The translations under genes and the position numbers were made by a program. Below the pieces are notes generated by a model. The model was not told where the DNA came from. It was given only the letters and a program-made list of their open reading frames with translations, and searched no databases. From contig OZ014413.1 of NCBI GenBank assembly GCA_963965975.1, positions 7,652,501 to 7,716,500 of the forward strand: a stretch of 64,000 nucleotides of DNA, in the 5' to 3' direction. Below are positions 1 through 64,000 of the stretch, in pieces; the first letter of the stretch is position 1, and each line of letters opens with the position of its first letter. Source of the DNA: Xestospongia bergquistia. Its lineage: Eukaryota; Porifera; Demospongiae; Haplosclerida; Petrosiidae.

Positions 1-910
1 AAACAAATCTTTTCTGTTGTGACATGACAGATGGAAGCATAAAATCAATTCGTCAACAACTCTTGACAATTGGAATTGTGTTAATATGTGTTTGACTTGT
101 CATCATAACACTATTTTCAGTGGGTGTATACACTTTATACAACTGAGGCTAATGTTATTCAGTTTGGTACTGATCGACTGCAGCTTTCAACAGCTAAAGA
201 GCTGAGTAGTTTTATTTACTGTTTTTTGTACACGTATTCTTGCCCCCTAGCTGTAGTACTTGTAATGGCATTTATTTTAACAGGATTAGTACATAATAAC
301 ACTATCTATTATGTTTTTACTGTTATGTTTTGCTTCAGTTTGTTTTTTATTTCCTTTTCATTCTTGTCCTTTGTTGTTTTAAGCATCACTTGAGACATAG
401 GTAAGCAGAAAAATTAAAAACTGTATACGGATGTCAAAAGTTTTTTGTACATATTTAGTACTCTTTATGGATCTTTGATTATAAGATATTAGATCAATAT
501 TTTAGACGTTTAATGTAATGAAAAGTGTTTTGTTAATATACCCACTGGCAATTGCATATTGTGCAATTGTATTCGCTGTTCCTTTATATCAATTTGTAAT
601 TATTCCTTGTTTCTCTCAATTTATTCCTAGTATGTTCAATCATATATGGATTGGACTAGTGGCAGTATTAGTAGTATCTTTCATTACAATTCTTATTAAC
701 TACATTATCATTCATTGAAAATATAACATTTGATAATGAACTAAATTACATGAACTTGCACTACCTTTGCATATCATGGCTGTTCCTTTTTTCTGTTGCT
801 GGGAGTTTTTGCTGTTAAGTCAGGTATTGCTTTCATTTCAATTACTGTTTTTGTTACAGAATTTACTGAGAGAACAAGAACAGGAATATAACAGGAATAT
901 ATATAATTCT
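1..910 (+). pseudogene. POT-like transporter pseudogene (copy 1, left end off window)
   Basis: Degraded copy of the array transporter. Readable pieces include the TM4-TM5 signature (ANVIQFGTD, then ELSSFIY) at about 140-230, TM6 at about 290-390, the TM8 segment (IYPLAI...FAVPLYQF) at 535-600, and the C-terminal 'gagaacaag' region near 875. The cytoplasmic loop between TM6 and TM7, strongly conserved in all good copies, is almost wholly deleted at 393-480, and the TM10-TM11 segment is missing near 820. Several frameshifts and stops are present. The N-terminal third is lost or lies outside the window. It cannot make a working carrier. Confidence 0.85.
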
Positions 911-1489
911 ATACGCTGTAAAGGAAAGCTAGTCTTTGAAACAGTTTTGATCTATGCATATGTAGTTTTCACATAGACATAAAATTTATAGTATTAAATA
1001 TATTAATTGTACTTGATTCACTAATATATCCTGTTTTATCTGTAACAGTGTGAGTGTATTATTATTATTGTAAGGAATTTTAGGAATTAATTTTATTATT
1101 TTAAAAATATCAATACATTTGCATATATTGGTTGGTATACTTGAAAAATCAACATTTTAAATACAATGTTATCATTATTATTTTTGATGACAGAAATTAG
1201 AAGATAGTTGCTCTATATTTGAGAACTATTCGTGTCTACATGCGTGTATGTTTTTGGTGTATTTTTTGTGTGTTTGTACAATTACATAAAGCAGTATATA
1301 TATAAAAAAGCAGTCTATATATTGATTCTGTAACACATAATTTCTGGTATCAAATATGATATAACGATAAATTTGTTAGTCACTAGGTTGCTACATAATG
1401 CAAATTAGAGTCACACATATACATACATACATATATAAATATACATATGTACATATACACACACATACGTACATATACATACATGTGTA
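911..1489. other. AT-rich spacer
   Basis: No gene seen. The first part is decayed 3' flank of copy 1, alike to flanks downstream of other copies (compare 41220-41330). The remainder is low-complexity, ending in alternating tacata/tatg repeats. Confidence 0.5.
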
Positions 1490-1704
1490 TATATATATAT
1501 ATATATATATATTATATTTTTTTCTATTGATATGATTACTTTTCTATATACCTTGTTATTGTTATGGCTATGATATTGAAATTAAACCATAATAGTTATG
1601 TAAATAGTGGAAGGTTTAAAAAATACACATTTTTATTCATTTGCCAATACTAAGTAAATGTTGTATGAATCATAAAGATTGTATAGACCTCTAACCAGAG
1701 TTGA
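1490..1704 (+). promoter_or_regulatory. (TA)n tract and conserved 5' leader of copy 2
   Basis: A (TA)n run at about 1490-1512 is followed by a diverged form of the leader found before most array copies: a gttattgttatg-like start, a gttatgtaaatagtg-like middle, then the block ending just before the ATG. Its position and repetition suggest the core promoter and 5' UTR. No experiment supports this. Confidence 0.5.
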
Positions 1705-3404
1705 ATGGCAGAATCAATACCTTTAATATCAAATAACTCTTCAAATAAAAATATATCGTGTTCTTGTTTCAGGAGCAGGTGCAAATGTGTCTGCATTCAA
1801 TCAAAAGGAGCGCTGTTAGTTTTAGTTATCAGTATTCTACTGGCTAACATAGTCATTATATCTGGAGCTCTTTCTACATATTTCACTGACAAACATTCTT
1901 GTCTTATTTTTGCTGCAGTTGGACTGTACTATCTTTTCTACCCTATCCTTGGTTTATTAGGTGAGAAATGGATGAGATATAAAGTAATGATAATTGGAAT
2001 AGCATTAACATGTGTGGGATTTGTCATTATAACAGTATGTTCAGTGGGTCTGTACTTTATACAGTTTGATAGCATTACAGCTGTGACATTATCGATAACT
2101 GTAACTTTTCCTTTCTTTCTTGGATATGGCTTGTTTCAGGCTAATGTGATCCAGTTTGGTACTGATCAACTACAGTTTTCAACTTCTGAAGAATTGAGTA
2201 GTTTTATTTACTGGCTTTTGTACATGAATTATTGTCCACTAGCTGTAGTACTTGTAATGTCATCTATTGTTACAGGATTAGTACATAATAACACTATCTA
2301 TTATGTTTTTACTGTTATATTTGGTTCTGGTTATGTTTTTATTATCTTTGCAATCTTGTCTTTTTGTTGTTTTAAACATCACTTGGTTATTGAACCAGCT
2401 CAACACAACAATCCTGTCAAATTAATATGGAGAGTAATAAAGTATGCTTGGAAACACAAACAACCAGTGAGACGTAGTGCCTTTACCTTTGGTGAATCTC
2501 CTCCTTCAAGATTAGATTTAGCTAAAGAGAGATATGGTGGACTATTTACTACTGTACAAGTAGAGGATGTGAAAAGCTTTTTGTATATACTCAGTATACT
2601 TTTGAGAATCTTTGCATATGACCTTGTGGACACTGAATCAAAGCTTTTAGATCAATATTTACAAGTTGTACGATTGAAAAATGAGACATATTACAATGTG
2701 ATGGAAAGTATGATATTAATATATCCTCTGACAATACCTTATTGTGTGATTGTATTTGCTGTTCCTTTATATCAATTTGTAATTATTCCTTTCTTCTCTC
2801 AATTTATTCCTAGTATGTTGAAACGTATATGGATTGGACTAGTGGCACTGTTAATAGAGTCTGTAATGACAACTGTTATTAGCTACATGATAAATCATGA
2901 CTTTGGAAATGCTTTAATTAATAAAGACATCTGTTTATCATTCATTGACAACATAACCTTTGAAAATGGACTACAATCAAATGAACTCACACTACCTTAC
3001 TATATCATGGCTTTCCCTCAGGTTTTTGTTGGTATTACTAATTTTTTGTTAAGTTCACAAGTTTTGAGTTTATTTTAGCTCAAGGTCCTCGTACTATGCA
3101 AGGATTGTTAATTGGAATATGGTTCATTAATAATGGTATTTATTGTGTACATCTAACTCTTGTAAGCTCACGATATGGTTGTTACTGGGAATATTATGCT
3201 GTTAAGACAGGTGTTGTTTTCATTTCAGTCATTGTTTTCACTATTGCTGCATATAAATACAAGTATAGACAACGTAATGAACTATCTGATGTTAATGAGA
3301 GAGTTATAATTACAGAATATACGGAAAGACAACTAGAGCATATTTATAGCATAGAAGATGAGGAAAATGAAGACGATAATGATAGTGACCATGATTACAA
3401 GTGA
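1705..3404 (+). pseudogene. POT/PTR2-like MFS transporter, copy 2, one frameshift
   Basis: Nearly whole 12-TM carrier. ATG at 1705 is in the same place as in every full copy (MAES/MAEA start). The reading frame is open for 457 codons, through TM1-TM6, the cytoplasmic loop with PSRLDLAKERYGG, and TM7-TM10. One base is then lost from a T-rich run near 3045, relative to intact copies. The downstream frame (3096-3404) carries on with QGLLIGIWF (TM11), TM12 and the acidic tail ending in HDYK. Everything else is intact, so this is either a very young pseudogene, a polymorphism, or an assembly error in a homopolymer. As written, a product would stop after TM10. Confidence 0.85.
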
Positions 3405-8275: not shown

Positions 8276-8279
8276 AAGG

Positions 8280-8760: not shown

Positions 8761-10466
8761 ATGGCAGAAGCAAACCCTTTACTGTCTAGTAACTCTTCAA
8801 GTCAAAATTTATTGTCTTCTCGTTACAGGAGCAGATATAAAAATGTTTGTGTTCAATCAAAAGGAGCACTGGTAGTTTTAGTTATCAGTATTCTACTGGC
8901 TAATATCACTATTATAACTGGAGCTCTTTTTACACAGTTTATTGGCGGATATTCCTTTCTTTTATTTGCTGCAATTGGACTGTACTATCTTTTCTACCCT
9001 ATCCTTGGTTTGGTAGGTGAGAAATGGATGAGATATAAAATATTGATAATTGGAATGACATTAATATGTGTGGGATTTGTCATCATAACAGTATCTTTAG
9101 TGGGTCTGTACCTTTTACAGCTTGATAGCGTTATAGCTGCTATTTTATTGACAACTCTATGTTGTCCTTTCTTTCTTGGATTCGGCTTGTTTCAGGCTAA
9201 TGTGATCCAGTTTGGTACTGATCAACTACAGTTTTCTCCTTCTGAAGAATTGAGTAATTTTATTTATTTGTTTTTGTACATGTATTATTGCCCGCTAGCT
9301 GTAGTACTTGTAATGGCATCTATTGTAACAGGATTAGTACATAATAACACTAAATATTATGCTTTTACTGTTATATTTAGCTCTGGTTATTTTTTTATTA
9401 TCTTCGCAAAATCTTGTCTTTTTGTTGTTTTAAGCATCACTTGGTTATTGAACCAGCTCAACACAACAATCCTGTCAAATTAATATGGAGAGTAATAAAG
9501 TATGCTTGGAAACACAAACAACCAGTGAGACGTAGTGCCTTTACATTTGGTGAATCTCCTCCTTCAAGATTAGATTTAGCTAAAGAGAGAAATGGAGGAC
9601 TATTTACTACAGAACAAGTAGAGGATGTGAAAAGCTTTTTGTATATACTCAGTATACTTATGGGAATTCTTGCATTTGGCCTTGTGGACAGTGAATCAAA
9701 GCTTCTAGATCAATATTTACAAGTTGTACGATTGAAAAATGACACATATTACAATGTGATGGAAAGTGTGCTATTAATATATCCTCTGACTATACCATAT
9801 TGTGTGATTGTATTTGCTGTTCCTTTATATCAGTTTGTAATTATTCCTTTCTTCTCTCAATTTATTCCTAGTATGTTGAAACGTATATGGATTGGACTAG
9901 TGGCACTGTTAGTAGAGTCTGTAATGACAACTGTTATTAGCTACATGATAAATCATGACTTTGGAAATATTTCAATTAATGATGATAATTGTTTGTCATT
10001 TACTGACAACATAACATTTGAAAATGGATTACAATCAAATGAACTCACACTACCTTACTATATCATGGCTGTCCCTCAGTTTTTTGCTGGTATTACTATT
10101 TTTTTGGTTAGGTTCACAACTTTTGAATTTATTTTAGCTCAAGGTCCTCGTACTATGCAAGGATTGTTAATTGGAATATGGTTCATTAATAATAGCATTT
10201 ATTGTGTACATCTAACTCTTGCAAACTCACAATATGGTTGTTACTGGGAATATTATGCTGTTAAGACAGGAGTTGTTTTCATTTCAGTCATTGTTTACAC
10301 TATTGCTGCATATAAATACAAGTATAGACAACGTAATGAACTATCTGATGTTAATGAGAGACTTATCATTACAGAATATATCGAACGACAACTAGAGCAG
10401 GAATATTACATAGAAAATGAAGAAAATGACCACGATGATGCTGATAGTAACTATGATTACAACTGA
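8761..10466 (+). pseudogene. POT/PTR2-like MFS transporter, copy 3, one frameshift
   Basis: Whole-length carrier copy. Frame one (8761 to about 9405) gives MAEANPLLSSNSS, TM1-TM6 and the ANVIQFGTDQLQFSPSEE signature. Frame two (about 9410-10466) gives FCCFKHHLVIEP, the PSRLDLAKER loop, TM7-TM12 and the acidic tail ENDHDDADSNYDYN. The frames are separated by two extra A bases at the end of TM6 (gcaaaatc where intact copies have gcaatc). 'YGG' in the loop is 'NGG' here. AATAAA occurs 14 nt and 43 nt after the stop. It is either a young pseudogene or an assembly or allele error. It shares private variants with the intact copy at 42718 (INDDNCLSF, EYIERQLEQ). Confidence 0.85.
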
Positions 10467-13745: not shown

Positions 13746-13854
13746 AACTTCAGACTGTTTATTTTAAAAAATGGTGACAAGTTTGTTTCTTCAAGAGTGT
13801 TTAAAAGCCTTCTATTTCAGATGCTGTTAGTTACATATCAATAGCATGTTTAGG

Positions 13855-13858
13855 TCTG

Positions 13859-13937
<79 letters not shown>

Positions 13938-16776: not shown

Positions 16777-17605
16777 ATGTAAGAATCAAATCCTTTAATG
16801 TCTAGTAACTCTTCAGGTCAAAATTTATTTTCTTCTTGTTGCAGGAGCAGATATAAAAATGTTTGTGTTCAATCAAAAGGAGCACTGGTAGTTTTAGTTA
16901 TCAGTATTCTAATGGCTAATATCACTATTATATTTGGACCTCTTTTTACACATTTTATTGACAGATATTCCTTTCTTTTATTTGTTTCAATTGGACTGTA
17001 CTATCTTTTCTACCCTATCCTTGGTTTGTTAGGTGAGAGATGGATGAGATATAGAGTCTATAATGACAACTGTTATTAGCTACATGATAAATCATGACTT
17101 AGGAAATGTATCAATTAATGATGACATTTGTTTGTCATTTACTGATAACATAACTTTTGAAAATGGATTACAATCAAATGAACTCACACTACCTTACTAT
17201 ATCATGGCTGTCCCTCAGTTTTTTGTTGGTATTACTATTTTTTTGATTAGGTTCACAACTTTTGAATTTATTTTAGCTCAAGATCCTTGTACTATGCAAG
17301 GATTGTTAATCGGAATATTGTTCATTAATAATAGCATTTATTGTATGCATCTAACTCTTGCAAACTCATGATATGGTTGTTACTGGGAATATTATGCTGT
17401 TAAGACAGGTGTTGTTTTCATTTCAGTCATTGTTTACACTATTGCTTCATATAAATACAAGTATAGACAACGTAATGAACTATCTGATGTTAACGAGAGA
17501 GTTATTATTACAGAATATATGGAAAGACAACTAGAGCAGAAATATTGCATAGAAGATGAAGAAAATGACCACGATGATGATGATAGTAACCATGATTACA
17601 ACTGA
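16777..17605 (+). pseudogene. POT-like transporter pseudogene, copy 4, internal deletion
   Basis: The normal start at 16777 is followed at once by TAA (ATGGCA has become ATGTAA). Reading can restart at ATG 16798 (MSSNSSGQNLFSS) and runs through TM1-TM2. At about 17052 the sequence jumps from LGERWMRYR straight into the TM9 coding segment (tctataatgacaactg), a loss of roughly 870 bp. Both original sites have gagt-like sequence at the junction. The C-terminal third then follows in another frame with a TGA in place of the Arg codon near 17369, and ends with the usual acidic tail. Confidence 0.9.
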
Positions 17606-19813: not shown

Positions 19814-21524
19814 ATGGCAGAAGCAAACCCTTTACTGTCTAGTAACTCTTCAAGTCAAAATTTATTTTCTTCTCGTTGCAGGAGCAGATATAAAAATGTT
19901 TGTGTTCAATCAAAAGGAGCACTGGTAGTTTTAGTTATCAGTATTCTACAGGCTAATATCACTATTATATCTGGAGCTTTTTTTACACATTTTATTGACA
20001 GATATTCCTTTCTTTTATTTGCTGCAATTGGACTGTACTATCTTTTCTACCCTATCCTTGGTTTGTTAGGTGAGAGATGGATGAGATATAAAGTAATGAT
20101 AATTGGAATGGTATTAATATGTGTGGGATTTGTCATTATAACAGTATCTTTAGTGGGCCTGTACTTTTTACAGCTTGATAGCATTACAGCTGCTATTGTA
20201 TTGACAACTCTAAGTTGTCCTTTCTTTCTTGGATATGGCTTGTTTCAGGCTAATGTGATCCAGTTTGGCACTGATCAACTTCAGTTTTCTCCTTCTGAAG
20301 AATTGAGTAGTTTTATTTACTGGTTTTTGTACATGTATTATTGCCCACTATCTGTAGTACTTGTAATGGCATGTATTGTAACAGGATCAGTACATAATAA
20401 CACTATGTATTATGTTTTTACTGTTATATTTGGCTCTGGTTATTTTTTTTATTTGCTTTGCATTCTTGTCGTTTTGTTGTTTTAAGCATCACTTGGTTAT
20501 TGAACCAGCTCAACACAACAATCCTGTCAAATTAATATGGAGAGTAATAAAGTATGCTTGGAAGCACAAACAACCAGTGAGACGTAGTGCCTTTACCTTT
20601 GGTGAATCTCCTCCTTCAAGATTAGACTTAGCTAAAGAGAGATATGGAGGGCAATTTACTACTGTACAAGTAGAGGATGTGAAAAGCTTTTTGTACATAC
20701 TCAGTATACTTTTGGGAATTCTTGTATTTGGCCTTGTGGACAGTGAATCAAAGATTTTAGATCAATATTTACAAGTTGTACGATTGAAAAATGATGCATA
20801 TTACAATGTGATGGAAAGTGTGCTATTAATATATCCTCTGACAATACCATATTGTGTGATTGTATTTGCTGTTCCTTTATATCAATTTGTAATTATTCCT
20901 TCCTTTCGCTTCAATCCAAGTATGTTGAAACGTATATGGATTGGACTAGTAGCACTGTTAGTAGAATCTGTAATGACAACTGTTATTAGCTACATGATAA
21001 ATCATGACTTTGAAAATGTTTTAATTAATGATGACATTTGTTTGTCATTAACTGACAACATAACTTTTGAAAATGGATTACAATCAAATGAACTCACACT
21101 ACCTTACTATATCATGGCTGTCCCTCAGTTTTTTGCTGGTAATCCTGGTATTACTATTTTTTTGATTAGGTTCACAACTTTTGAGTTTATTTTAGCTCAA
21201 GGTCCTCGTACTATGCAAGGATTGTTAATCGGAATATTGTTCATAAGTAATAGCATTTATTGTGTACATCTAACTCTTGCAAACTCACGATATGGTTGTT
21301 ACTGGGAGTATTATGCTGTTAAGACAGGAGTTGTTTTCATTTCAGTTATTATTTACACTATTGCTGCATATAAATACAAGTATAGACAACGTAATGAACT
21401 ATCTGATGTTAATGAGAGAGTTATTATTACAGAATATACGGAAAGACAACTAGAGCAGAAATATTGCATAGATGATGATGAAAATGACCACAATGATGAT
21501 GATAGTAACTATGATTACAACTGA
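19814..21524 (+). pseudogene. POT/PTR2-like MFS transporter, copy 5, one frameshift
   Basis: Full-length copy in two frames. 19814 to about 20450 covers TM1-TM6, and about 20450-21524 covers the loop PSRLDLAKERYGG and TM7-TM12 with tail DDENDHNDDDSNYDYN. One extra base in the T-rich run at the end of TM6 (about 20444-20455) shifts the frame. This is the same place as in copy 3, but with a different change. Two in-frame oddities: the TM8-TM9 loop reads SFRFNPS where others have FFSQFIPS, and a 9-bp insertion in TM10 adds a second Gly-Asn-Pro stretch (AGNPGITIF). Probably a young pseudogene. Confidence 0.85.
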
Positions 21525-40244: not shown

Positions 40245-40247
40245 TCT

Positions 40248-40284
<37 letters not shown>

Positions 40285-40719: not shown

Positions 40720-41165
40720 TGAAGGACTCAATAGATAGTTGTAAGATGAATTACAAAATGTTTATGTTCATTCATTGTTGTCCCTTAGTGTGCTTATAGT
40801 GTTAGTATGTTTTGATTGTGTTCAAAAGTTTATTCTAGCTGAATGTCCTCATACTATGCAGGATTGCTAATTAGGAGACTAGAATATGGTACATAAACTA
40901 TATAGCATTTAACTTGTACATTTAACTCTGGCAGGCTTTGGTTGTTACTGGGAATATTATGCTGTTAAGATATATATAATCTTAGTCCTTGTCTACACTA
41001 TTGCTGCATATAAATACATGTTCAAGTCTTGACAATGTCACGAACTATATATCTGAATTCAATGAGAAAAGTATTGTAACAGAATATAATAAGAAACTAG
41101 AGCAGGAATATTGTATTGACAATGAATGTTGATGATAATGATGATGTGACAGTGACACCACTTCA
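40717..41165 (+). pseudogene. POT-like transporter remnant, copy 6
   Basis: Begins like the 59984 and 50225 copies (MKDSIDSCKMNYKMFMFIH for MEGSRGCCNMKYKNVCVH), then jumps to the TM11 segment (cctcatactatgcaggattg), TM12 and a shortened acidic tail. More than two thirds of the gene is deleted. Confidence 0.8.
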
Positions 41166-42717: not shown

Positions 42718-44421
42718 ATGGCAGAATCACAACCTTTAATATCTAGTAACTCTTCAGGTAAAAATATATTGATTTCTTGTTATATTAGCAGATGTAAAAA
42801 TGTTTGTGTTCAATCAAAAGGAGCAATATTAGTTTTAGTTATCAGTATTCTACTGGCTAATATTACTATTATAACTGGAGCTCTTTCTACACATTTTATT
42901 GACAAATATTCCTTTCTTATATTTGCTGCAATTGGACTGTACTATCTTTTCTACCCTATCCTTGGTTTGTTAGGTGAGAAATGGATGAGATATAAAGTAT
43001 TGATAATTGGAATGGTATTAATATGTGTGGGATTTGTCATCATAACAGTATGTTCAGTGGGTCTATATTTTATACAGCTTGATAGCATTACAGCTGTGAC
43101 CTTATCGATAATTGTAACTTGTCCTTTCTTTCTTGGGTATGGCTTGTTTCAGGCTAATGTGATCCAGTTTGGTACTGATCAACTTCAGTTTTCTCCTTCT
43201 GAAGAGTTGAGCAGTTTTATTTACTGGTTTTTGTACATGTATTATTGCCCACTAGCTGTAGTACTTGTAATGGCATCTATTGTAACAGGATTAGTACATA
43301 ATAACACTATCTATTATGTTTTTATTGTTATATTTGGCTCTGGTTATGTTTTTGTTATCTTTGCAATCTTGTCTTTTTGTTGTTTTAAACGTCACTTTGT
43401 TATTGAGCCAGCTCAACACAACAATCCTGTCAAATTAATATGGAGAGTAATAAAGTATGCTTGGAAACACAAACAACCAGTGAGACGTAGTGCCTTTACA
43501 TTTGGTGAATCTCCTCCTTCAAGATTAGATTTAGCTAAAGAGAGATATGGAGGACCATTTACTACTGTACAAGTAGAAGATGTGAAAAGTTTTTTGTACA
43601 TATTCAGTACACTTCTGGGAACCTTTGCATATGGCCTTCTTGACACTAAATCAAAGATTTTAGATCAATACTTACGAGTCGTACGACTAAAAGATGTCAC
43701 GTATTACAATTTGATGGAAAGTATGCTATTAATATATCCTCTGGCTATACCATATTGTGTGATCTTATTTGCTGTTCCTTTATATCAATTTGTAATTATT
43801 CCTTTCTTCTCTCAATTTATTCCTAGTATGTTGAAACGTATATGGATTGGATTAGTGGCACTGTTAGTAGAGTCTGTAATGACAACTGTTATTAGCTATA
43901 TGATAAATCATGACTTTGGAAATGTTTCAATTAATGATGATAATTGTTTGTCATTTACTGACAACATAACATTTGAAAATGCATTACAATCAAATGAACT
44001 CACATTACCTTATTATATCATGGCTGTCCCTCAGTTTTTTGCTGGTATTACTATTTTTTTGGTTAGGTTCGCAAGTTTTGAATTTATTTTAGCTCAAGGT
44101 CCTCGTACTATGCAAGGATTGTTAATCGGAATATGGTTCATTAATAATAATATTTATTGTGTACATCTAACTCTTGTAAGCTCACAATATGGTTGTTACT
44201 GGGAGTATTATGCTGTTAAGACAGGAGTTGCCTTCATTTCAGTCATTGTTTTCACTTTTGCTGCATATAAATACAAGTATAGACAACGTAATGAACTATC
44301 TGATGTTAATGAGAGAATTATCATTACAGAATATATCGAACGACAACTAGAGCAGAAATATGGCATCGAAGATAAAGAAAATGACATCAATGATGATGAT
44401 AGTGATCACGATTACAACTGA
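42718..44421 (+). CDS. POT/PTR2 (SLC15)-like 12-TM MFS transporter, intact
   Basis: Single-exon gene, 567 residues. About twelve hydrophobic segments: 36-58, 64-86, 94-117, 123-148, 165-191, 196-223, 288-308, 333-363, 373-397, 428-458, 463-487, 494-518. POT-type marks are the loop after TM2 (PILGLLGEKWMRYK, 80-93), NVIQFGTDQ at 147-155 (POT: N.x.FG.DQ), and FEFILAQGPRTMQGLLIG at 454-471 (POT: E...AQ.P..M.GLL.G). The TM6-TM7 cytoplasmic loop, 224-287, carries PSRLDLAKERYGGPFTT. The last about 50 residues are cytoplasmic and acidic (ENDINDDDSDHDYN). An NIT glycosylation site lies in the TM9-TM10 loop (416-418). The POT helix-1 motif ExxERF is absent. Family assignment is by motif; the substrate is unknown, with oligopeptides or related solutes only by analogy. 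Confidence 0.85.
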   Translation: MAESQPLISSNSSGKNILISCYISRCKNVCVQSKGAILVLVISILLANITIITGALSTHFIDKYSFLIFAAIGLYYLFYPILGLLGEKWMRYKVLIIGMVLICVGFVIITVCSVGLYFIQLDSITAVTLSIIVTCPFFLGYGLFQANVIQFGTDQLQFSPSEELSSFIYWFLYMYYCPLAVVLVMASIVTGLVHNNTIYYVFIVIFGSGYVFVIFAILSFCCFKRHFVIEPAQHNNPVKLIWRVIKYAWKHKQPVRRSAFTFGESPPSRLDLAKERYGGPFTTVQVEDVKSFLYIFSTLLGTFAYGLLDTKSKILDQYLRVVRLKDVTYYNLMESMLLIYPLAIPYCVILFAVPLYQFVIIPFFSQFIPSMLKRIWIGLVALLVESVMTTVISYMINHDFGNVSINDDNCLSFTDNITFENALQSNELTLPYYIMAVPQFFAGITIFLVRFASFEFILAQGPRTMQGLLIGIWFINNNIYCVHLTLVSSQYGCYWEYYAVKTGVAFISVIVFTFAAYKYKYRQRNELSDVNERIIITEYIERQLEQKYGIEDKENDINDDDSDHDYN

Positions 44422-44943: not shown

Positions 44944-45690
44944 TTGCTAACTGGGAAATGGATAAGATATAAAGCTAATTAATTATACGATCACTGGTAT
45001 TATTTTTTATTTATTTGCTTAATATGATTCGTTGAGAGCTATCTAATTCTTTACCGTTTGGTTGTCCCTTAGTTTGTCTATGGTGGTAGTATTTTTGGTG
45101 GTTTTTAGTTTTTTTTCTAGCTGAAGGTTTCGTACTATGCAAGGATTGCTAATTATACACTGATACATAAACTATAGCATTTACCTTGTACATTAGCTAG
45201 CTTATATAGGGCGCCATTTGTATCAAAATTGGAAAATTATCATGATATATTAAATAAGTTATTATTTATCAAATAATTATTGATTTACTTCTTATATTTT
45301 TTAATAATACATGTATTAATTTAGTAAACATCATACATCATTTACTAAATCAAGTATTATTTAGTAAATCACAAGTTATTTGACAAAATAATGAGCATTA
45401 AAATGAAATCGTAACATTGAATGCGTCCAATTTTGATGGAAACGGCACCCCATAAGCTTTCAATTTGGTTGTTACTGGGAGTTGATGCTGTTAAGATACA
45501 TGTTATATAACATCAGTCACTGTCTACACTATTGCTGCATATAAATACATGTACAAATACTGACAATGTAATGAACTAACTAACATCAATGTGAGAAATA
45601 TCATAATAGAATATAAAGCTAGAATATTCCATTGAAGAGGAAGTTTATGATAATGATGATGATAAGATAGTGACATCACTACATACGAAT
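44944..45690 (+). pseudogene. POT-like transporter remnant, copy 8, carrying a MITE
   Basis: Short traces of the TM2-TM3 loop (gaaatggataagatataaag), then the TM10-TM11 segment (gtactatgcaaggattgcta), the MITE, then TM12 (ttggttgttactgggag) and the acidic tail. Closely alike to copy 13 at 57841-58640, including the MITE position. Confidence 0.75.
45204..45454. mobile_element. 251-bp MITE in copy 8
   Basis: Inverted-repeat ends: left atatagggcgcc then tatcaaaattgga; right tccaattttgatggaaac then ggcaccccata. Possible 5-bp flanking repeat agctt on both sides. The interior is AT-rich and non-coding, with several ttatttagtaaatca-type repeats. A second, more decayed copy sits at the same site in copy 13. 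Confidence 0.7.
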
Positions 45691-46927: not shown

Positions 46928-48080
46928 ATGGCAGAATTAAAACCTTAAATATCTAGAAATTCTTCAATTAAAAATAAATTGTCTATTTTTACAGGGACAA
47001 GTACAAATATCCCTGTGTTTGATCAAAAGGAGCACTGTTAGTTATCAATTTCTACTGGCTAATATCACCATTATATCTGGAGGTCTTTCTACACATTTTG
47101 TTGACAAATATTCCTCTCTTATATGTGCTGCAACTAGACTACACTTTCTTTCCTATCCTATCCTTGGTTTGTTAGGTAAGAAATGGATGAGATATCAAAT
47201 AATAATAATTGAAATTGTGTTAATATGTGTGGGTTTTGTCATCATAATAGTATGTTCAGTAGGTCTATACTTTATACAGCTTGATAGCATTTAGCATTAA
47301 AGCATTGACTTTAGCAATATCTGTAACATGTCCTTTCTTTATTGGATATGGCTTGTTTCATGCTAATGTGATCCAGGATTAGGACTTCTTGACACTAAAA
47401 CAAAAATTTTAAATCAATATTTACAAGTTGCGTGAATGAAAAATGGTGCAAATTACAATGTCATGGAAAGTGCACTGTTTGTATATCCTCTGACAATTCA
47501 GTATTGTTTCCTTTTGTTTGCTGTTCCTATATATCAATATATAATTGTTCCTTTCTTTACTCGCTTTATTCCTAGTATGTTGAAATGTATGTGGTTTGGA
47601 CTTGTGACAATGTTGGTAGAATCTATCATGACAACTCTTGCAAGTATTGAAGATGTCTATTTAGCATTAATTGACAACAACACATTCCAAAATAAACTAC
47701 AATCAGACGATCTCACACTACCCCCAGTTTCTTACTGGTATTAGTATTTATTTTATTTAGTTTGTAAGTATTGAATTTATTTAGCTCATGGTCCTCGTTC
47801 TATGCAAGGATTGTTAATTGGAATATGGTTCATGCATCTTAGCATTACTTGTATACATTTAACTCTGCAGTTGGAAGTATTATGCTGTTAAGACAGATGT
47901 TGTTTTATTGCAGTCATTGCTGCTGCATATAAATACAAATATAGACAACATAATGAACTATCTGATGTTAATGAGAGAATTAATATTACAGAATATACTG
48001 AAAGACAACTAGATCAGAGATATGACATAAAAGATGAAGGAAATGACGACGACAACGACAGTGGTCATGATTACAATTGA
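46928..48080 (+). pseudogene. POT-like transporter pseudogene, copy 9
   Basis: Start ATG 46928 (MAELKP then stop). TM1-TM4 are readable at 47019-47295 in one frame, with a deletion from TM4 to the end of TM7 near 47375. TM8-TM9 lie at 47436-47640, followed by a shortened TM9-TM10 loop, and then TM10-TM12 and the acidic tail (GNDDDNDSGHDYN) in broken frames to TGA 48078-48080. Many breaks; older than the single-frameshift copies. Confidence 0.9.
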
Positions 48081-50224: not shown

Positions 50225-50346
50225 ATGGAAGGCTCAAGAAGTTGTTGTAAAATGAAGTACAAAAATGTTTGTGTTCATTCTAAAGGAGCTCTTGTGGTAC
50301 TGGTAACAAGTATCTTGCTAACAACTACCACTATAATATCATGAGT
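50225..50346 (+). pseudogene. POT-like transporter 5' fragment, copy 10
   Basis: First 39 codons (MEGSRSCCKMKYKNVCVH, SKGALVVLVTSILL, then ISTOP at the TM1 end), matching the start of the 59984 gene. The rest is missing. The upstream flank also matches that gene's (about 49700-50224 with 59460-59983). Confidence 0.9.
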
Positions 50347-52185: not shown

Positions 52186-53889
52186 ATGGCAAAATCAAAC
52201 CTTTTATTGTCTAGTAGCTTTTCAGGTAAAAGTTTATTGTCTTTTCGTTACAGGAGAAGATATAAAAATGTTTGTGTTCAACCAAAAGGAGCACTGGTAG
52301 TTTTAGTTATCAGTATTCTACAGACTAATATCACTATTATATCTGGAGCTCTTTCCACACATTTTGTTGACAAATATACCTTTCTTATATTTGCTGCAAT
52401 TGGACTGTACTATATTTTCTACCCTATCCTTGGTTTGTTAGGTGAGAAATGGATGAGATATAAAGTATTGTTAATTGGAATGGTTTTAATATGTGTAGGA
52501 TTTGTCATCATAACAGTATCTTTAGTGGGCCTGTACCTTTTACACCTTGATAGCATTACAGCTGTGATTTTATTGACAACTCTAAGTTGTCCTTTCTTTC
52601 TTGGATATGGCTTGTTTCAGGCTAATGTTATTCAGTTTGGTACTGATCAACTTCAGTTTTCTCCTTCTGAAGAATTAAGTAGTTTTATTTACTGGCTTTT
52701 GTACATGTATTATTGCCCACTAGCTGTAGTACTTGTAGTGTCATCTATTGTAACAGGATTAGTACATAATAACACTATCTATTATGTTTTTACTCTTATA
52801 TTTGGCTCTGGTTATGCTTTTATTATCTTTGCAATCTTGTCTCTTTGTTGCTTTAAGCATCACTTGGTAATTGAGCCAGCTCAACACAATAATCCTGTCA
52901 AATTAATATGGAGAGTAATAAAGTATGCTTGGAAACACAAACAACCAGTGAGACGTAGTGCCTTTACATTTGGTGAATCTCCTCCCTCAAGATTAGACTT
53001 AGCTAAAGAGAGATATGGTGGACCATTTACTACTGTACAAGTAGAGGATGTGAAAAGCTTTTTGTACATACTCAGTATACTTTTGGGAATCTTTGCATAT
53101 GGCCTTGTGGACACTAAATCAAAGATTTTAGATCAATATTTACGAGTCGTACGACTAAAAGATGTCACGTATTACAATGTGATGGAAAGTGTACTATTAG
53201 AATATCCTCTGACTATACCATATTGTGTGATTGTATTTGCTGTTCCTTTATATCAATTTGTAATTATTCCTTGTTTCTCTCGCTTTATTCCTAGTATGTT
53301 GAAACGTATATGGATTGGACTAGTGGCACTGTTAGTAGAATCTGTAATGACAACTGTTATTAGCTACATGATAAATCATGACTTTGAAAATGTTTCAATT
53401 AATGATGACATTTGTTTGTCATTTACTGACAACATAACTTTTGAAAAAAAATTACAATCAAATGAGGTCACACTACCTTACTATATCATGGCTGTCCCTC
53501 AGTTTTTTGCTGGTATTAGTATTTTTTTTATTAGGTTCACAATTATTGAGTTTATTTTAGCTCAATGTCCTCGTACTATGCAAGGATTGTTACTCGGAAT
53601 ATGGTTCATTAATAATAGCATTTATTGTGTACATCTAACTCTTGCAAGCTCACAATATGGTTGTTACTGGGAATATTATGCTGTTAAGACATTATTTGTT
53701 TTCATTTCAGTCATTGTTTACACTATTGCTTCATATAAATACAAGTATAGACAACGTAATGAACTATCTGATGTTAATGAGATAGTTATCATTACAGAAT
53801 ATACTGAAAGACAACTAGAGCAGAAATATTGCATAGAAGATGAAGAAAATGACCACAATGATGATGATTGTATCCATGATTACAACTGA
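52186..53889 (+). CDS. POT/PTR2 (SLC15)-like 12-TM MFS transporter, intact
   Basis: Single-exon, 567 residues, collinear with the 42718 protein with no gaps. It keeps GEKWMRYK, ANVIQFGTDQLQFSPSEE, PSRLDLAKERYGGPFTT and the acidic tail (EDEENDHNDDDCIHDYN). Private changes: the N-terminus MAKSNLLLSSSFSGK with a very basic FRYRRRYK before TM1; Glu in place of Ile at the start of TM8 (LLEYPLTIP); AQCPRTMQG where all other good copies have AQGPRTMQG; KTLFVF for KTGVVF in TM12. The Gly to Cys change falls in the most conserved POT-like motif and could alter function. The 3' flank is of the copy 3/4/5 type. Expression and substrate unknown. Confidence 0.85.
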   Translation: MAKSNLLLSSSFSGKSLLSFRYRRRYKNVCVQPKGALVVLVISILQTNITIISGALSTHFVDKYTFLIFAAIGLYYIFYPILGLLGEKWMRYKVLLIGMVLICVGFVIITVSLVGLYLLHLDSITAVILLTTLSCPFFLGYGLFQANVIQFGTDQLQFSPSEELSSFIYWLLYMYYCPLAVVLVVSSIVTGLVHNNTIYYVFTLIFGSGYAFIIFAILSLCCFKHHLVIEPAQHNNPVKLIWRVIKYAWKHKQPVRRSAFTFGESPPSRLDLAKERYGGPFTTVQVEDVKSFLYILSILLGIFAYGLVDTKSKILDQYLRVVRLKDVTYYNVMESVLLEYPLTIPYCVIVFAVPLYQFVIIPCFSRFIPSMLKRIWIGLVALLVESVMTTVISYMINHDFENVSINDDICLSFTDNITFEKKLQSNEVTLPYYIMAVPQFFAGISIFFIRFTIIEFILAQCPRTMQGLLLGIWFINNSIYCVHLTLASSQYGCYWEYYAVKTLFVFISVIVYTIASYKYKYRQRNELSDVNEIVIITEYTERQLEQKYCIEDEENDHNDDDCIHDYN

Positions 53890-55404: not shown

Positions 55405-55548
55405 GTCTTGTCCTTGTTATGACTATAAATTGAAACAAAAACACGACGATTATGTAAACAGTGACAATTATGATAAGACATATGCTAATGTTTCTTGTTC
55501 ATTTGCTGATTCAAAATAGATATTGTATAGTTCATAAAGCAGAGTTGA
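55405..55548 (+). promoter_or_regulatory. Conserved 5' leader of copy 12
   Basis: Array leader, closest to the orphan leader at 14181-14332 (both have ttatgactataaattgaaac and the cgattatgtaaacagtgaca stretch). Confidence 0.6.
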
Positions 55549-57254
55549 ATGGCAGAATCCCGACCTTTAATGTGTAGTAACTCTCCAGGTAAAAATATAT
55601 TGTCTTCTTGTTATAAGAACAGATAGAAAAATGTTTTTGTTCAATCAAAGGGAACTCTGTTAGTTTTGGTTATCAGTATTCTACTGGCTAATATCACTGT
55701 TATATCTGGAGCTCTTTCCACACATTTTATTGACAGATATTCCTTTCTTATATTTGCTGCAATTGGACTGTACTATCTTTTCTACCCTATACTTGGTTTG
55801 TTAGGTGAGAAATGGATGAGATATAAAGTAATGCTAATTGGAATGATATTAATATGTGTGGGATTTGTCATCATTACAGTATCTTCAGTGGTTCTGTACT
55901 TTATACATCTTAATAGCATTACAGTTGTGATTTTATCATTAACTTTATCTTCTTCTTTCTTTCTTGGATATGGCTTGTTTCAGGCTAATGTGATTCAGTT
56001 TGGTACTGATCAACTTCAGTTTTCAGCTTCTGAAGAATATAGTAGTTTTATTTACTGGTTTTCATACATGTATTATTGCCCACTAGCTGTAGTACTTGTA
56101 ATGGCATCTATTGTAACAGGATTAGTACATAATAACACTATCTATTATGTTTTTACTCTTATATTTGGCTCTGGTTATGCTTTTATTATCTTTGCAATCT
56201 TGTCTCTTTGTTGCTTTAAGCATCACTTGGTAATTGAGCCAGCTCAACACAATAATCCTGTCAAATTAATATGGAGAGTAATAAAGTATGCTTGGAAACA
56301 CAAACAACCAGTGAGACGTAGTGCCTTTACATTTTGGTGAATCTCCTCCTTCAAGATTAGACTTAGCTAAAGAGAGATATGGAGGACCATTTACTACTGT
56401 ACAAGTAGAGGATGTGAAAAGCTTTTTGTACATACTCAGTATACTTTTAGGAATCTTTGCATATGGCCTTATGGACACTAAATCAAAGATTTTAGAGCAA
56501 TATTTACGTGTGGCGCAACTGAAAAATGTCACGTATTACAATGTGATGGGAAAGTATGCTATTAATATATCCTCTGACTATACCATATTGTGTGATTGTA
56601 TTTGCTGTTCCTTTATATCAATTTGTAATTATTCCTTGTTTCTCTCGCTTTATTCCTAGTATGTTGAAACGTGTATGGATTGGACTAGTGGCACTATTAA
56701 TAGAGTCTGTAATGATAACTCTTATTAGCTACATGATAAATTATGATTTTGGAAATGCCTTAATTAATGAAGATGTTTGTTTGTCATTCATTGACAACAT
56801 AACATTTGAAAATGGATTTCAATCAAATGAACTCACACTACCTTACTATATCATGGCTGTCCCTCAGTTTTTCTCTGGTATTAGTATTTTTTTAGTTAAG
56901 TTCACAAGTTTTGAATTTATTTTAGCTCAAGGTCCTCGTACTATGCAAGGACTGTTAATCGGAATATGGTTCATTAATAATAATATTTATTGTGTACATC
57001 TAACTCTTGCAAGCTCACAATATGGTTGTTACTGGGAGTATTATGCTGTTAAGACAGGAGTTGTTTTCATTTCAGTCATTGTTTTCACTTTTGCTGCATA
57101 TAAATACAAGTATAGACAACGTAATGAACTATCTGATATTAATGAGAGACTTATCATTACAGAATATACCGAACGACAACTAGAGCAGAAATATGGCATC
57201 GAAAATGAAGAAAATGACATCAATGATGATGATAGTGATCACGTTTACAACTGA
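55549..57254 (+). pseudogene. POT-like transporter pseudogene, copy 12 (mosaic)
   Basis: Full length, three breaks. ATG 55549 gives MAESRPLMCSNSPGKN, then TAG at 55624-55626 just before TM1. The frame is open from TM1 to the loop (to about 56335), where an extra T (acattttggtg) shifts it. An extra G near 56548 (gatgggaaag) shifts it again, and it is then open 56556-57254 to tail ENDINDDDSDHVYN. The middle (about 56150-56330) matches the 52186 copy base for base, while the last 250 bp and the 3' flank match the 42718 copy. That makes it a recombinant or converted copy. Confidence 0.9.
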
Positions 57255-57840: not shown

Positions 57841-58640
57841 GCTAAATAAGAAATGGATAATATATAAAACAAATTTATTATATTTTATTTATTTATTTTA
57901 TTTACTTTCACTGTATAATTGGCTATGGTATGATTATTCTTAAATTATTCATTTATTTGTTTAATGTGATTTATTGAGAGCTATCTAATTCTTTACTGGT
58001 TGGTTGCCCCTTAGTTTGTCAATGGTGGTAGTATTTTTTGGTGGTTTTCAGATTTTTTTCCTAGCTGAAGGTTTTGTACTATGCAGGAATTACTAATTAT
58101 AATATGGTACATAAACTATAGAATTTACCTTGTACTTCTAACTCTGACTAGCTTTTATAGCTTTTGTATCAAAATTGGAAAATTATTATATTAAAAAAGT
58201 TATTATTTTTGAAATAACTCTTGATTTACTTTTAATTTTTTTAATAATACATACATTATCTAGTATCATACATTATTTAATAAATCTAGTATTATTTAGT
58301 AAATCACAAGTTATTTAACAAATAATGAACATTAAAAAGTAAATCATAACTTGTTAACTGTACAATGAAGGCATCCAATTTTAATACAAAAGGCAACCCA
58401 TAAGCTTTCAATTTGGTTGTTACTGGGAGTTGATGCTGTTAAGATACATGTTATATAACATCAGTCATTGCTACATTATTGATGCACATGTACAAGTACT
58501 GACCATATAATGAACTATCTGACGTCAATGAGAGAGATATCATAATAGAATATAATGAAACCAAGTCAATGCAAGAATATTCCATTGAAGAGGAAGTTTA
58601 TGGTAATGATGATGATGTTAAGATAATGACACCACTACAT
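57841..58640 (+). pseudogene. POT-like transporter remnant, copy 13, carrying a MITE
   Basis: Traces of the TM2-TM3 loop (gaaatggataatatataaaa), TM10-TM11 (gtactatgcaggaattacta), the MITE (about 58155-58402), TM12 and tail. Duplicate of copy 8 at 44944-45690. Confidence 0.75.
58155..58402. mobile_element. MITE in copy 13 (same insertion as 45204-45454)
   Basis: Same ends (tatcaaaattgga ... tccaattttaatac) and same position in the transporter as the copy at 45204-45454, but more decayed at both tips. The insertion predates the duplication. Confidence 0.7.
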
Positions 58641-59980: not shown

Positions 59981-59983
59981 TTG

Positions 59984-61675
59984 ATGGAAGGCTCAAGAGG
60001 TTGTTGTAACATGAAGTACAAAAATGTTTGTGTTCATTCTAAAGGAGCTCTCGTGGTACTGGCAACAAGTATCTTGCTAACAACTACCACTATAATATCA
60101 GGAGGTCTTTCCACACAGTTCATTGATAGCTATTCATATATCATCTTTGCTACTGTTGGACTTCACTATCTCTTTTATCCCCTCCTTGGCTTGTTAGGTG
60201 AGAAATGGATGAGGTATAAAGTTATACTGGTTGGAATAATATTAACATCTGTAGGATTCCTTATCATTTTGGTTACATTAGTGACAATACACTTCATAAA
60301 TCTCAATGGAGTTGTAGTTGTTTGTATTTGTTTATTTGGAAGTGCTTTTTACTTCATTGGATATGGTCTATATGAAGCTAATATTATTCAATTTGGTACT
60401 GATCAACTTCAATTTGCATCATCTCAAGAGTTAAGTAGTTTTGTGTATTGGGTTTTATACATATACTATTTTCCACTTGCTATACTACTGCTAGTAGCAT
60501 CAATTATAACAGGTTTCGTTTATAAAAATATCATCTATTATACTTTCACTGTAATATTTGGTTCTGGCGTGCTCATTATCATCATTGCAATCTTGTCATT
60601 TTGTTGTTTCAAACAACATTTGATTATTGAACCAGGACAGCAAAATAATCCTGTCAAGCTAATTTGGAGAGTGATAATTTATGCTTGGAAATGCAAACTA
60701 CCACAAAGACGTAGTGCTTTCACTTATGGAGAATCTCTTCCTTCCAGGTTAGACCTGGGTAAAGAGAGATATGGTGGACCATTTACTACTGTACAAGTGG
60801 AGGATGTCAAAAGCTTTTTATACATGGTAAGTATTGTTTTAGGGACCTTTGGATATGGATTTCTTGACACTAAATCAAAACTTTATAATCAATATTTAAC
60901 ACTTATGCAAACTGATGGACCAAATAGTTTCTTGAAAAGTCTGTTACTGATATATCCTCTTACAGTTCCATATCTTGTTATTACATTTACTGTGCCTTTG
61001 TATCAATTTATAATAGTTCCTTTCTTCTTTCACTGCATTCCTAGTATGTTGAAACGTATATTGATTGGACTAGTGGCACTGTTAGTAGAGTCTATAATAA
61101 TAAGTATTTTGATCTACATAATGACAAAAGATATTAGAAGTGCTTCAACAAATAGTGAGATGTCAATCTGCCAACTGACTCTCACAAATAACATAACTAC
61201 TCAATATGAACAACAATCACATGAACTAACTTTACCTTTCTTTGTCATGGTTGTTCCTCAGTTTTTTGTTGGTGTTAGCATTTTTTTTGTTCAGTTCACA
61301 AGTATCGAGTTTATTCTAGCTCAAGGTCCTCGTACTATGCAAGGATTGTTAATGGGAATATGGTTTGTTCATTTTAGCATTTATCTTCTTCATCTAACTC
61401 TCGCAAGCTCACCATTAGGTTGTTGCTGGGAGTATTATGCTGTTAAGACAGGTGTAGTTTTTATATCTATCATTGGTTACAGTATTGCTGGTTATAAATA
61501 CAAGTATAGACAACGTAATGAACTATCTGATGTCAATGAGAGAGTTATTATTACAGAATATACAGAGAGACAATTGGAGCAAGAATATGGTAGAATCTCA
61601 AAAGGTGACATATATTCTAACAAATACAATGCCATGTCTAAAAGTCAATTAAATGTTTTGTTAAGGCAGAAATGA
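59984..61675 (+). CDS. POT/PTR2 (SLC15)-like 12-TM MFS transporter, divergent subfamily, intact
   Basis: Single-exon, 563 residues from ATG 59984 (MEGSRGCCNMKYKNVCVH); a TTG codon just upstream is not a likely start. Twelve hydrophobic segments as in the other copies. It keeps LLGEKWMRYK, ANIIQFGTDQLQFASSQE, PSRLDLGKERYGGPFTT and FILAQGPRTMQGLLMG. It differs from the main subfamily by a shorter N-terminus, an altered loop (GQQNNPVK, WKCKLPQRR), a longer TM9-TM10 loop with NNIT, and a C-terminus that lacks the Asp/Asn-rich tail and ends instead in a basic KSQLNVLLRQK. AATAAA lies at 61827-61832, about 150 nt after the stop. Substrate unknown. Confidence 0.85.
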   Translation: MEGSRGCCNMKYKNVCVHSKGALVVLATSILLTTTTIISGGLSTQFIDSYSYIIFATVGLHYLFYPLLGLLGEKWMRYKVILVGIILTSVGFLIILVTLVTIHFINLNGVVVVCICLFGSAFYFIGYGLYEANIIQFGTDQLQFASSQELSSFVYWVLYIYYFPLAILLLVASIITGFVYKNIIYYTFTVIFGSGVLIIIIAILSFCCFKQHLIIEPGQQNNPVKLIWRVIIYAWKCKLPQRRSAFTYGESLPSRLDLGKERYGGPFTTVQVEDVKSFLYMVSIVLGTFGYGFLDTKSKLYNQYLTLMQTDGPNSFLKSLLLIYPLTVPYLVITFTVPLYQFIIVPFFFHCIPSMLKRILIGLVALLVESIIISILIYIMTKDIRSASTNSEMSICQLTLTNNITTQYEQQSHELTLPFFVMVVPQFFVGVSIFFVQFTSIEFILAQGPRTMQGLLMGIWFVHFSIYLLHLTLASSPLGCCWEYYAVKTGVVFISIIGYSIAGYKYKYRQRNELSDVNERVIITEYTERQLEQEYGRISKGDIYSNKYNAMSKSQLNVLLRQK

Positions 61676-62860
61676 TCATTTGACAATATCATTGATATTG
61701 TCTGATGTTAACAACTGAATTAAAGTAGAAAATTTAATATTTGTTGTTGTTTGTATGACATTAAAGATTAATGCTGTAAATTTGTGTCAAAATTAAACTT
61801 TTAATTTGTTTGCAATACAAAAGTATAATAAATAACAAATAATAATATGATGTATAGGATATTCACAAATAGAATACATTTTGTTTATCTAAGTATATAA
61901 ATAAGGTAAGGTTTGTTATAATAATATAGTTGTCTGTCTGTTTAAATTTTAAATAAACTAAATATTATATAATTTTGTCAACACTACCTGTTCATTTGAT
62001 TCATACTTATCAAGTATATAAATAAATACCTATAGATATCTAACACAAACTTTCATGTACTAATTGATAAATTAATATATTGATGTTGCTTATTTATCTC
62101 TTTTTGTTAACTTTTGTTATTGAAATGGAATCTAATATAGTGTTTGCTTGTATTTGTCTATTTAATGAGTCCATTAGAAGGATATTCACTCTCAAAGCTA
62201 TTGGACTATATCATACATATTAAATATCTATAACTATTGGTACACTCATTGGAATTTCATGCTCATTAGACCCCACATAGTGTTGCATTATGTAAAAGAG
62301 ATGTTACCTAAGCATATACCCAACAGGCCAGTACTAGAAAATGAACAGCTTGGATCATTTGACTATAAATAGAAGCTATAAAGGTAGCAGGAAAGTGATA
62401 GGTTATGGAAAAATAATGCTTAGATGTATGATGGTTTATTTATTTTATGCACACAAATAATAACAACAATTATTGTTTACGTAAAGGCAAGTTTCAACTT
62501 TTGTTCCATTTTTAAAACAAATAAAAATAGATATTAAGGATATGTATCTGCAGGACTGTCTGTAAATCCATTTGTTCAATTAACTGTCATCAATCTATCC
62601 ATTCTTCCATTTATACATACAGTTAATGGATTTAGTAAATGTAATAATCTCTTTTTTTGATTGTTTAATGTTTATCTATACATGTTAGCACTGCTCATTG
62701 TATTATCATTATTTATTATTTCCTCTCTATCTATACCTGTATATAAGAGAGTTATTTTAGTACTGCTACCAGTATAACAGCCTTGAATTGTATACCTGCT
62801 ATTTGATTGTACTATATTTGTCCTGTTGACTCCCTTATTAAACTACAAGAAAAAACAAAG
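61676..62860. other. Spacer before last copy
   Basis: AT-rich with short catcaatctatccattc-type repeats near 62590. No gene, no (TA)n leader. Confidence 0.5.
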
Positions 62861-64000
62861 ATGATGTATGATAACGTTTGTGTTGGTTCTAAAGGAGCTC
62901 TTGTGGTTATAGCAACAAGTATCTTACTAACAATTACTAGTGTAGTAACTGGAGGTCTATCGACAAAATTCATTGTTAACTATTCATATGTCATTTATGC
63001 TGCAATCGGACTCCACTATCTCTTTTATCCTCTTCTTGGCTTGTTAGGTGAGAAATGGATGAGATATAAAGTTTTACTGGTTGGAATAATATTACTATTT
63101 GTCGGATTCTTTATCTCCATAGCTACATTAGTGGCACTATACTTTGTACATCTCAATGGCATTGCCATATTTGGTATATCTTTAGTTCTAAGTTTTCCTT
63201 ACTTCTTTGGATATGGTATTTTTCAAGCTAATTTGATCCAATTTGGTACTGATCAACTTCAGACTGCATCATCTCAAGAGTTAAGTAGTTTTGTGTATTG
63301 GGTTTTATACATGAATTATTTTATAATTGCTTTGGTATTGTTAATGGCATCACTAGTAACTAGTTTTGTATATAATAACACTATCTATTTCACTTTCATT
63401 GGTATATTTAGTTCTGGTATACTTATTGTAGTTATTGCAGTCTTGTCTTTTTTTTGTTTCAAACATCACTTGGTTATTGAACGAGCTCAACACAATAATC
63501 CTGTTAAACTAATATGGAGAGTGATAAGATATGCTTGGACTCATAAACAACCAGTGAGACGTAGTGCCTTTACTTATGGAGAGCCTTTACCCTCTAGACT
63601 TGAACTAGGTAAAGAGAGATATGGAGGACCATTTACTACTGTACAAGTGGAAGATGTCAAAAGCTTTCTATACATACTTAGTATTGTTTTAGGGACCTTT
63701 GGAATTGGATTAGTTGACACTGAATCAAAAATATTCGATCAATATTTAAGTCTAATACGAACTGATGGTTTAAGTAGTTTCATGGAAAGTCTGTTACTGA
63801 AATATCCTCTTACAGTACCATATCTTGTCATTGTATTTGCTGTTCTTTTATACCAATTTATAATAGTTCCTTTCTTCTCAAACTACATTCCTAGTATGTT
63901 GAAATGTATGTGGATTGGACTAGTGGCACTGTTAGTAGAGTCAATTATGACAACTCTTATAAGCTATTTCATGACTAGAGATATCAGAAATGTTTTAATG
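62861..64000 (+). CDS. POT/PTR2 (SLC15)-like transporter, divergent subfamily, runs off window
   Basis: Open for 380 codons from ATG 62861 (MMYDNVCVGSKGALVV; a second ATG follows at once) to the right edge, ending in the TM9 region, so about two thirds of the gene is present. It keeps LLGEKWMRYK, ANLIQFGTDQLQTASSQE and PSRLELGKERYGGPFTT. It groups with the 59984 gene (TASSQE, FVYW, LGKERYGG). Private changes include IERAQHNN for IEPAQHNN. The N-terminus is the shortest in the array. No break seen in the visible part. Confidence 0.85.
   Translation, partial: MMYDNVCVGSKGALVVIATSILLTITSVVTGGLSTKFIVNYSYVIYAAIGLHYLFYPLLGLLGEKWMRYKVLLVGIILLFVGFFISIATLVALYFVHLNGIAIFGISLVLSFPYFFGYGIFQANLIQFGTDQLQTASSQELSSFVYWVLYMNYFIIALVLLMASLVTSFVYNNTIYFTFIGIFSSGILIVVIAVLSFFCFKHHLVIERAQHNNPVKLIWRVIRYAWTHKQPVRRSAFTYGEPLPSRLELGKERYGGPFTTVQVEDVKSFLYILSIVLGTFGIGLVDTESKIFDQYLSLIRTDGLSSFMESLLLKYPLTVPYLVIVFAVLLYQFIIVPFFSNYIPSMLKCMWIGLVALLVESIMTTLISYFMTRDIRNVLM

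Follow-up and report, generated by a model that had tools for sequence, protein, structure and literature searches.

Positions 7652501 to 7716500 of contig OZ014413.1 (here C3; 11.5 Mb long) of the sponge Xestospongia bergquistia, whose genome assembly comprises 146,460,797 bases on 21 contigs, carry a same-strand tandem array of genes of the proton-coupled oligopeptide transporter (POT) family. This stretch of 64,000 bases is called the window from here on. The array is part of a family with at least 175 open one-exon frames in the genome, and this family evolves by birth and death and is under purifying selection. The explanation we favour, and judge fairly probable from the sequence comparisons given below, is that a PHT1 (SLC15A4)-like gene gave rise to a lineage-specific family of one-exon carriers that would have lost peptide/proton symport and acquired an altered pocket.

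Translated searches of the window with its intact copies, together with frameshift-aware alignment to the whole copy c7, located 15 POT-like loci, every one of them on the + strand; for most full copies tblastn gave E = 0.0. Three copies are whole, one is open at the window edge, three have one frameshift, one has three breaks and seven are remnants. A sequence-only reading of the window had described fifteen copies pointing in the same direction with exactly this tally of states.

That the copies are POT-like, as the same reading had it, was borne out by profile searches. The Pfam profile PTR2 (PF00854), the mark of the POT/PTR2 superfamily, matched c11 (E 3.4e-12; the three further window proteins had no score) and was detected in 37 of 44 family members genome-wide; NCBIfam matched none of the four window proteins. 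In a search of the PDB, SLC15A4 was found at 1.9e-13 with c7 and at 3.9e-13 with c14. When a profile of 44 members was compared with solved structures, SLC15A4 scored 1.5e-55, followed by SLC15A3 (4.2e-38), plant NPF2.10 (5e-36), PepT1 (5.7e-33) and NRT1.1 (1.8e-30); as to the 12-helix MFS fold, the profile alignment spans most of SLC15A4, and the hydropathy plot of c7 has 10 clear helices. By these sequence profiles the family is nearest to PHT1 (SLC15A4) among the POTs of known structure, a comparison outside which SLC15A5 and the non-vertebrate animal POTs lie. The earlier statement that the family lacks obvious vertebrate one-to-one relatives by motif is only half right and has to be amended in this respect; what stands is that the relation is many-to-one and that the functional residues are mostly gone. 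A horizontal or viral origin was rejected in favour of the relation to animal SLC15A4. With c7 as query, no close relatives were found in IMG/VR, GTDB contigs or plasmids; the IMG/VR and GTDB searches reach close relatives only and phage records were not searched. No earlier description of the family was found in the accessible part of the open-licence literature, subscription papers and supplements not being covered.

In canonical POTs the motif E1xxE2R in transmembrane helix 1 (TM1) serves both proton coupling and ligand binding (PMC9309889), and in PHT1 Arg44 (TM1) and Lys180 (TM4) clamp the C-terminus of the peptide and Glu473 (TM10) its N-terminus (PMC10502012). These positions were inspected in 66 open members whose frames reach 450 amino acids or more (62 from elsewhere in the genome plus c7, c11, c14 and c15, no two identical), the TM4 and TM10 positions being assigned by sequence alignment and not from a structure. 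ExxER or ExxEK occurs in 0 of the 66, neither in the first 130 amino acids of the trimmed nor in the first 200 of the untrimmed sequences (L066 is without the TM1 part). At the position of Lys180 a lysine is found once (in L040), with arginine in 18, tyrosine in 16 and glutamate in 10 members; at the position of Glu473 there is glutamate in 4, aspartate in 9, phenylalanine in 15 and tyrosine in 12. A basic TM4 residue together with an acidic TM10 residue is found in none of the 66. The window copies have glutamine or glutamate at TM4 and, in the six copies with letters there, isoleucine at TM10, and TM1 of c7 contains zero charged residues. Thus E1xxE2R, the TM4 lysine and the TM10 glutamate, by which a canonical proton-coupled peptide transporter is recognized, do not characterize the family. 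Judged by sequence, the members have mostly lost the residues by which peptides are held and protons are coupled, and so probably have a new job. Lys180 and Glu473 of PHT1 are also needed for the binding of TASL (PMC10502012), and both are mostly absent among the 66 members.

The genome provides its own control. On another contig (L009, G000:C13:6283000-6292500) it harbors an intron-bearing, PepT-like gene with the motifs ExxERFSYY, GGIKPC and GEVLF, in which the full ExxERFSYY, the TM4 lysine and the TM10 glutamate lie in separate open stretches that we read as exons. The family members, by contrast, are single frames of about 480-620 amino acids, in agreement with the earlier description of the window copies as intronless.

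The part of the protein that is kept is the cytosolic linker between TM6 and TM7, where Arg269, Tyr277, Gly278, Gly279 and Pro280 are found in 66 of 66 members and Lys274 and Glu287 in 65. Among 48 sequences, columns 263-293 have an entropy of 0.95 bits and columns 226-262 one of 1.50 bits, as compared with 2.0-2.8 bits in the helices. The variability at the two clamp positions, in TM4 and TM10, exceeds that of 75% and 80% of the helix columns. The linker has a pooled pN/pS of 0.13-0.14, the helices one of 0.49-0.72. The protein is under purifying selection: each of the 101 close pairs had a dN/dS below 1 (range 0.23-0.70; the pairs are not independent). A dN/dS comparison, which the sequence-only reading had proposed for the intact copies, gave 0.25-0.62 among the window copies, namely 0.25-0.31 for c14 and c15 against the younger copies and 0.32-0.62 among the younger six, with 0.41 for c14 against c15 (373 codons; 0.36 when the whole of c15 was used). 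Near the N-terminus an acidic-dileucine-like motif, [DE]xxxL[LI] within the first 35 amino acids, is present in 11 of the 66 members and can also be read in the broken copies c2, c3 and c5; c7 has the form ExxPLI, and c11 is without the acid. In SLC15A4 residues 1-31 hold a lysosomal motif (PMC10589346).

The family is much larger than the window. The series had been thought of as one inside 64 kb, an extent that proved too small: the array runs past both window edges, with 24 places in C3:7.64-7.79 Mb, all on the + strand, 9 of them inside the window and 15 outside. A collapse of the array into one or two genes, which could have overturned the earlier reading, is not seen in this assembly. 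The union of genome searches with PF00854, c7 and a second member (L047) gave at least 175 distinct places in which a family frame is open in one exon. C3 has 104 of these, and all together they are spread over 8 contigs; the number of places is a lower bound because each search scores only the best candidates. With PF00854 there were 100 matches among the best 105 of 384 candidates, none in the window, and 83 of the 100 have a frame of at least 480 amino acids with no stop inside the match. The c7 protein gave at least 85 matches in 71 places, 44 open when each match was judged by itself; C3:7642228 and C1:24745018 were dropped owing to a stop in another piece, which left 42. The L047 protein gave at least 83 matches, 75 of them open, and the stop-flagged C4:7152088 was removed from the union. 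Those members from outside the window that are part of the alignment are 21-36% identical to c7.

A degenerate DNA pattern for the linker motif [KR]YGGP[FY] was found at 424 sites genome-wide (215 forward, 209 reverse) and the reversed control pattern at none (0 forward, 0 reverse). In 326 kb of sequence that had been chosen for the family and is about 45% family-like, 72 of 72 pattern matches lay in family-like stretches, and the motif is carried by 56 of the 62 open frames from outside the window. The 424 sites include broken copies; the 5 in the window belong to the four whole genes and c12.

Within the window, intact, freshly broken and fragmentary copies stand next to each other, and duplicated blocks carry dead copies along, so that the description of the array as a birth-and-death series holds. 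The region of c7 and c8 resembles that of c12 and c13 (42575-44654 versus 55408-57493, 91.2% identical, continued by 44655-45753 versus 57568-58709, 75.9% identical). A further block, 48927-50345, is 92.8% identical to 58678-60104 and contains the remnant c10. In pairwise comparison the near-whole copies differ by about 8-26% of their DNA.

Each of the 5 frameshifts in c2, c3, c5 and c12 falls in a short homopolymer run, and recent slippage, polymorphism and base-calling error are therefore indistinguishable from the assembly sequence. Had the lineages of c3 and c5, which are separated by 36 synonymous differences, both been neutral since their split, 6.2 stops would be expected; 0 were observed, which indicates either that selection acted until very lately or that the indels are errors. 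The death of c2, c3 and c5 is therefore recent or partly apparent. Along the gene, synonymous differences between c14 and the six younger copies decrease: they are 0.71 at the N-terminal end, codons 331-420 and 421-540 have about 0.28-0.32, and the overlapping stretch 391-450 has 0.45. This suggests gene conversion.

Table 1. POT-like loci in the window (positions counted from its first base)
Copy	Position	Strand	State	Details
c1	9..793	+	remnant	POT-like; several frameshifts, one stop; translated search 42-793, frameshift-aware alignment 9-715
c2	1705..3398	+	near-whole, one frameshift	frameshift at ~3041 in T run; zero in-frame stops
c3	8761..10463	+	near-whole, one frameshift	frameshift at ~9410 in A run; zero in-frame stops
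c4	16777..17602	+	remnant	internal deletion of ~codons 95-383, junction ~17050; one stop at 17369
c5	19814..21521	+	near-whole, one frameshift	frameshift at ~20447 in T run; zero in-frame stops
c6	40772..41145	+	C-terminal remnant	
c7	42718..44418	+	whole gene	567 amino acids, no intron
c8	45407..45663	+	C-terminal remnant	lesion common to c8 and c13
c9	46928..48077	+	decayed remnant	stops, frameshifts, internal deletion
c10	50225..50299	+	N-terminal remnant	25 codons, inside duplicated block 48927-50345
c11	52186..53886	+	whole gene	567 amino acids
c12	55549..57251	+	three breaks	stop at 55624, frameshifts at ~56332 and ~56549
c13	58400..58616	+	C-terminal remnant	
c14	59984..61672	+	whole gene	older subclade, ~64.6% identical to c7
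c15	62858..64000	+	frame open at window edge	whole in contig

Read on in the contig, c15 has 541 codons from position 62858, with its stop 483 bases beyond the window edge. A dozen or so bases past the stop codon, c3, c4, c5 and c11 have the signal AATAAA, which is altered in c2, c7 and c12; its placement suggests very short 3′ untranslated regions.

Between about 22 and 40.7 kb of the window the translated search found no POT copies. This part contains a repeated block of 6-7 kb and a retroelement fragment. The block is present as a direct repeat at 24185-30388 and 32883-39574 (about 87-99% identical by piece) and has minisatellites of its own with units of 39, 42, 23 and 22 bases; 39244-40310 is also similar to 12928-13936. 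Between the two repeat blocks, at 30389-32882, lies the retroelement fragment, whose frame 31289-32032 has domains of a reverse transcriptase and of RNase H, and the second block contains an open frame of 163 amino acids (35468-35959) that is coiled-coil-like and has a sub-threshold match to Pfam Fic-like_C. Scans of the window for tRNAs and with Rfam at gathering scores gave no matches.

Elsewhere in the genome, an open copy at G000:C1:3263771-3265468 is 86% identical to c7 and thus as close to it as copies within the array; it is a case of movement between chromosomes or of a recent jump. Two further PTR2 matches, G000:C12:34415-35323 (L027) and G000:C13:2506971-2507699, have several internal stops. 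The same genome contains 3 Wnt loci and a very large expansion of SRCR domains, with 163 matches on many contigs when the best 150 of 4312 candidates were scored. Both features are marks of an animal genome. A massive SRCR expansion has been reported for the sponge Amphimedon queenslandica and a sea urchin (PMC10855680). Having no more than three Wnt genes is in keeping with a demosponge.

Among the known systems, SLC15A4/PHT1 and SLC15A3/PHT2 are the solved structures nearest in sequence, and with SLC15A4 the family has in common the linker GGPF...VEDVK, the FGxDQ region of TM4 and the LEF...P region of TM10; some members have an acidic dileucine-like N-terminus. It differs in that Arg44, Lys180 and Glu473 (numbering of PMC10502012) are gone in nearly all 66 members and in that one-exon genes occupy hundreds of loci. 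Vertebrates have one locus each for SLC15A3 and SLC15A4. To PepT (SLC15A1 and SLC15A2) and the bacterial POTs the family is related by the PepT1 and PTR2 matches given above, but ExxER and both charges of the peptide clamp, which the separate gene L009 keeps, are mostly lost. A large expansion of POTs with changed substrates is known from plants (PMC12780319). The sponge family resembles the plant NPF/NRT1.1 proteins in the size of its expansion and in its profile matches to NPF2.10 and NRT1.1, and differs in being closer to animal SLC15A4, in occurring in an animal and in consisting of one-exon genes in dense same-strand arrays. A precedent for an altered ExxER is found in atypical POTs such as DtpC and DtpD; E. 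coli DtpC has QxxEY in its place and a changed ligand choice (PMC9309889). DtpC keeps E2, whereas in the sponge family there is no ExxE[RK] in TM1 and TM4 and TM10 are changed as well.

How might such a family have come about? A PHT-like ancestral gene would have lost its introns once, probably via retroposition, and the resulting one-exon gene would have spread by tandem and block duplication, accompanied by pseudogenization and some gene conversion. With the loss of ExxER, the TM4 lysine and the TM10 glutamate, the symport of protons with di- and tripeptides would have come to an end, and the members would now move diverse other small molecules via the altered pocket, either passively or with another kind of coupling. 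The site of action could plausibly be the endolysosomal or plasma membranes of bacteria-eating cells, and the linker may be kept for gating or for a partner interaction common to all members.

Several observations weigh against such a family of changed carriers. Some charge is present in the TM1 core of 40 of the 66 members, and arginine at the TM4 position (18 of 66) or an acid at the TM10 position (13 of 66) is retained in some, which could therefore still handle charged substrates. The linker's GGPF and VEDVK are common to the family and SLC15A4, and the conservation of the linker may in part be ancestral. Of the four window proteins compared with Pfam, c11 alone had a score, and the AF2 prediction for window proteins was of low confidence (pLDDT 39), so that the mapping of the pocket rests on sequence alignment.

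A serious rival, because a variable pocket combined with a near-invariant cytosolic part is what is expected of sensors, is a "transceptor" repertoire: hundreds of one-exon receptors in which the near-invariant linker would engage one shared partner, a design that may be likened to chemoreceptor families, to SLC15A4-TASL and to plant NRT1.1. The low entropy and low pN/pS of the linker, the high variability of the TM4 and TM10 clamp positions and the large, clustered, one-exon, birth-and-death family all fit such a repertoire; moreover, SLC15A4 is a platform for TASL (PMC10502012) and NRT1.1 has been called a transceptor (PMC3950950). Since dN/dS is below 1 overall, and a plain carrier would also show a conserved linker whose GGPF and VEDVK parts are common to SLC15A4, we regard it as rather unlikely. 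In its most far-reaching form, several hundred one-exon "pseudo-transporter" receptors would make up a variable-pocket chemosensory or microbe-sensing repertoire on the POT fold with the linker as the shared signaling part, which we hold to be unlikely. It is quite unlikely that the array is an ordinary one in which the members still carry di- and tripeptides or histidine together with protons and the expansion serves dosage. Membership in the POT family with SLC15A4 as closest relation, purifying selection and an acidic-dileucine-like N-terminus recalling the lysosomal motif of SLC15A4 in 11 of the 66 members would all be expected; the near-complete absence of ExxER, the TM4 lysine and the TM10 glutamate would not, the less so as the genome's own intron-bearing gene has retained every one of these, and the low identity of non-window members to c7 is unlike a dosage pattern.

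Errors of assembly or base calling could have produced the frameshifts and perhaps some copies, the series of dying genes then being partly false. This would agree with the homopolymer position of 5 of 5 frameshifts and with the lack of in-frame stops in c2, c3 and c5, but false duplication would not account for the distance in DNA between the near-whole copies, c12 contains a stop, many lesions of other kinds are found in the seven remnants and the open family places lie on 8 contigs, all of which makes this explanation highly improbable. We consider it extremely improbable that runaway duplication left a family that has little function and consists mostly of neutral debris: although, of the 15 loci in the window, 11 are either broken or reduced to remnants, at least 175 frames are open for at least 480 codons, dN/dS is below 1 in every close pair and pN/pS is low in the linker. 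Most likely, then, as far as sequence allows a judgement, the members would be carriers whose altered pockets take small molecules other than peptides and which are without canonical proton coupling.

If the count of at least 175 open places and 424 motif sites holds, the family would be unusually large, as families of multi-pass membrane proteins go, for a 146 Mb animal genome. It has shed most of the residues that define its superfamily and yet remains under selection, and would also be a natural experiment in which a proton-coupled peptide carrier was turned into something else. Were the sensing repertoire true, the sponge would have built a chemosensory or microbe-sensing system from a PHT1-like carrier on the POT fold. 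Sponges live by engulfing bacteria and host symbionts, and the family makes the sorting, uptake or sensing of bacterial and symbiont chemistry in these animals testable.

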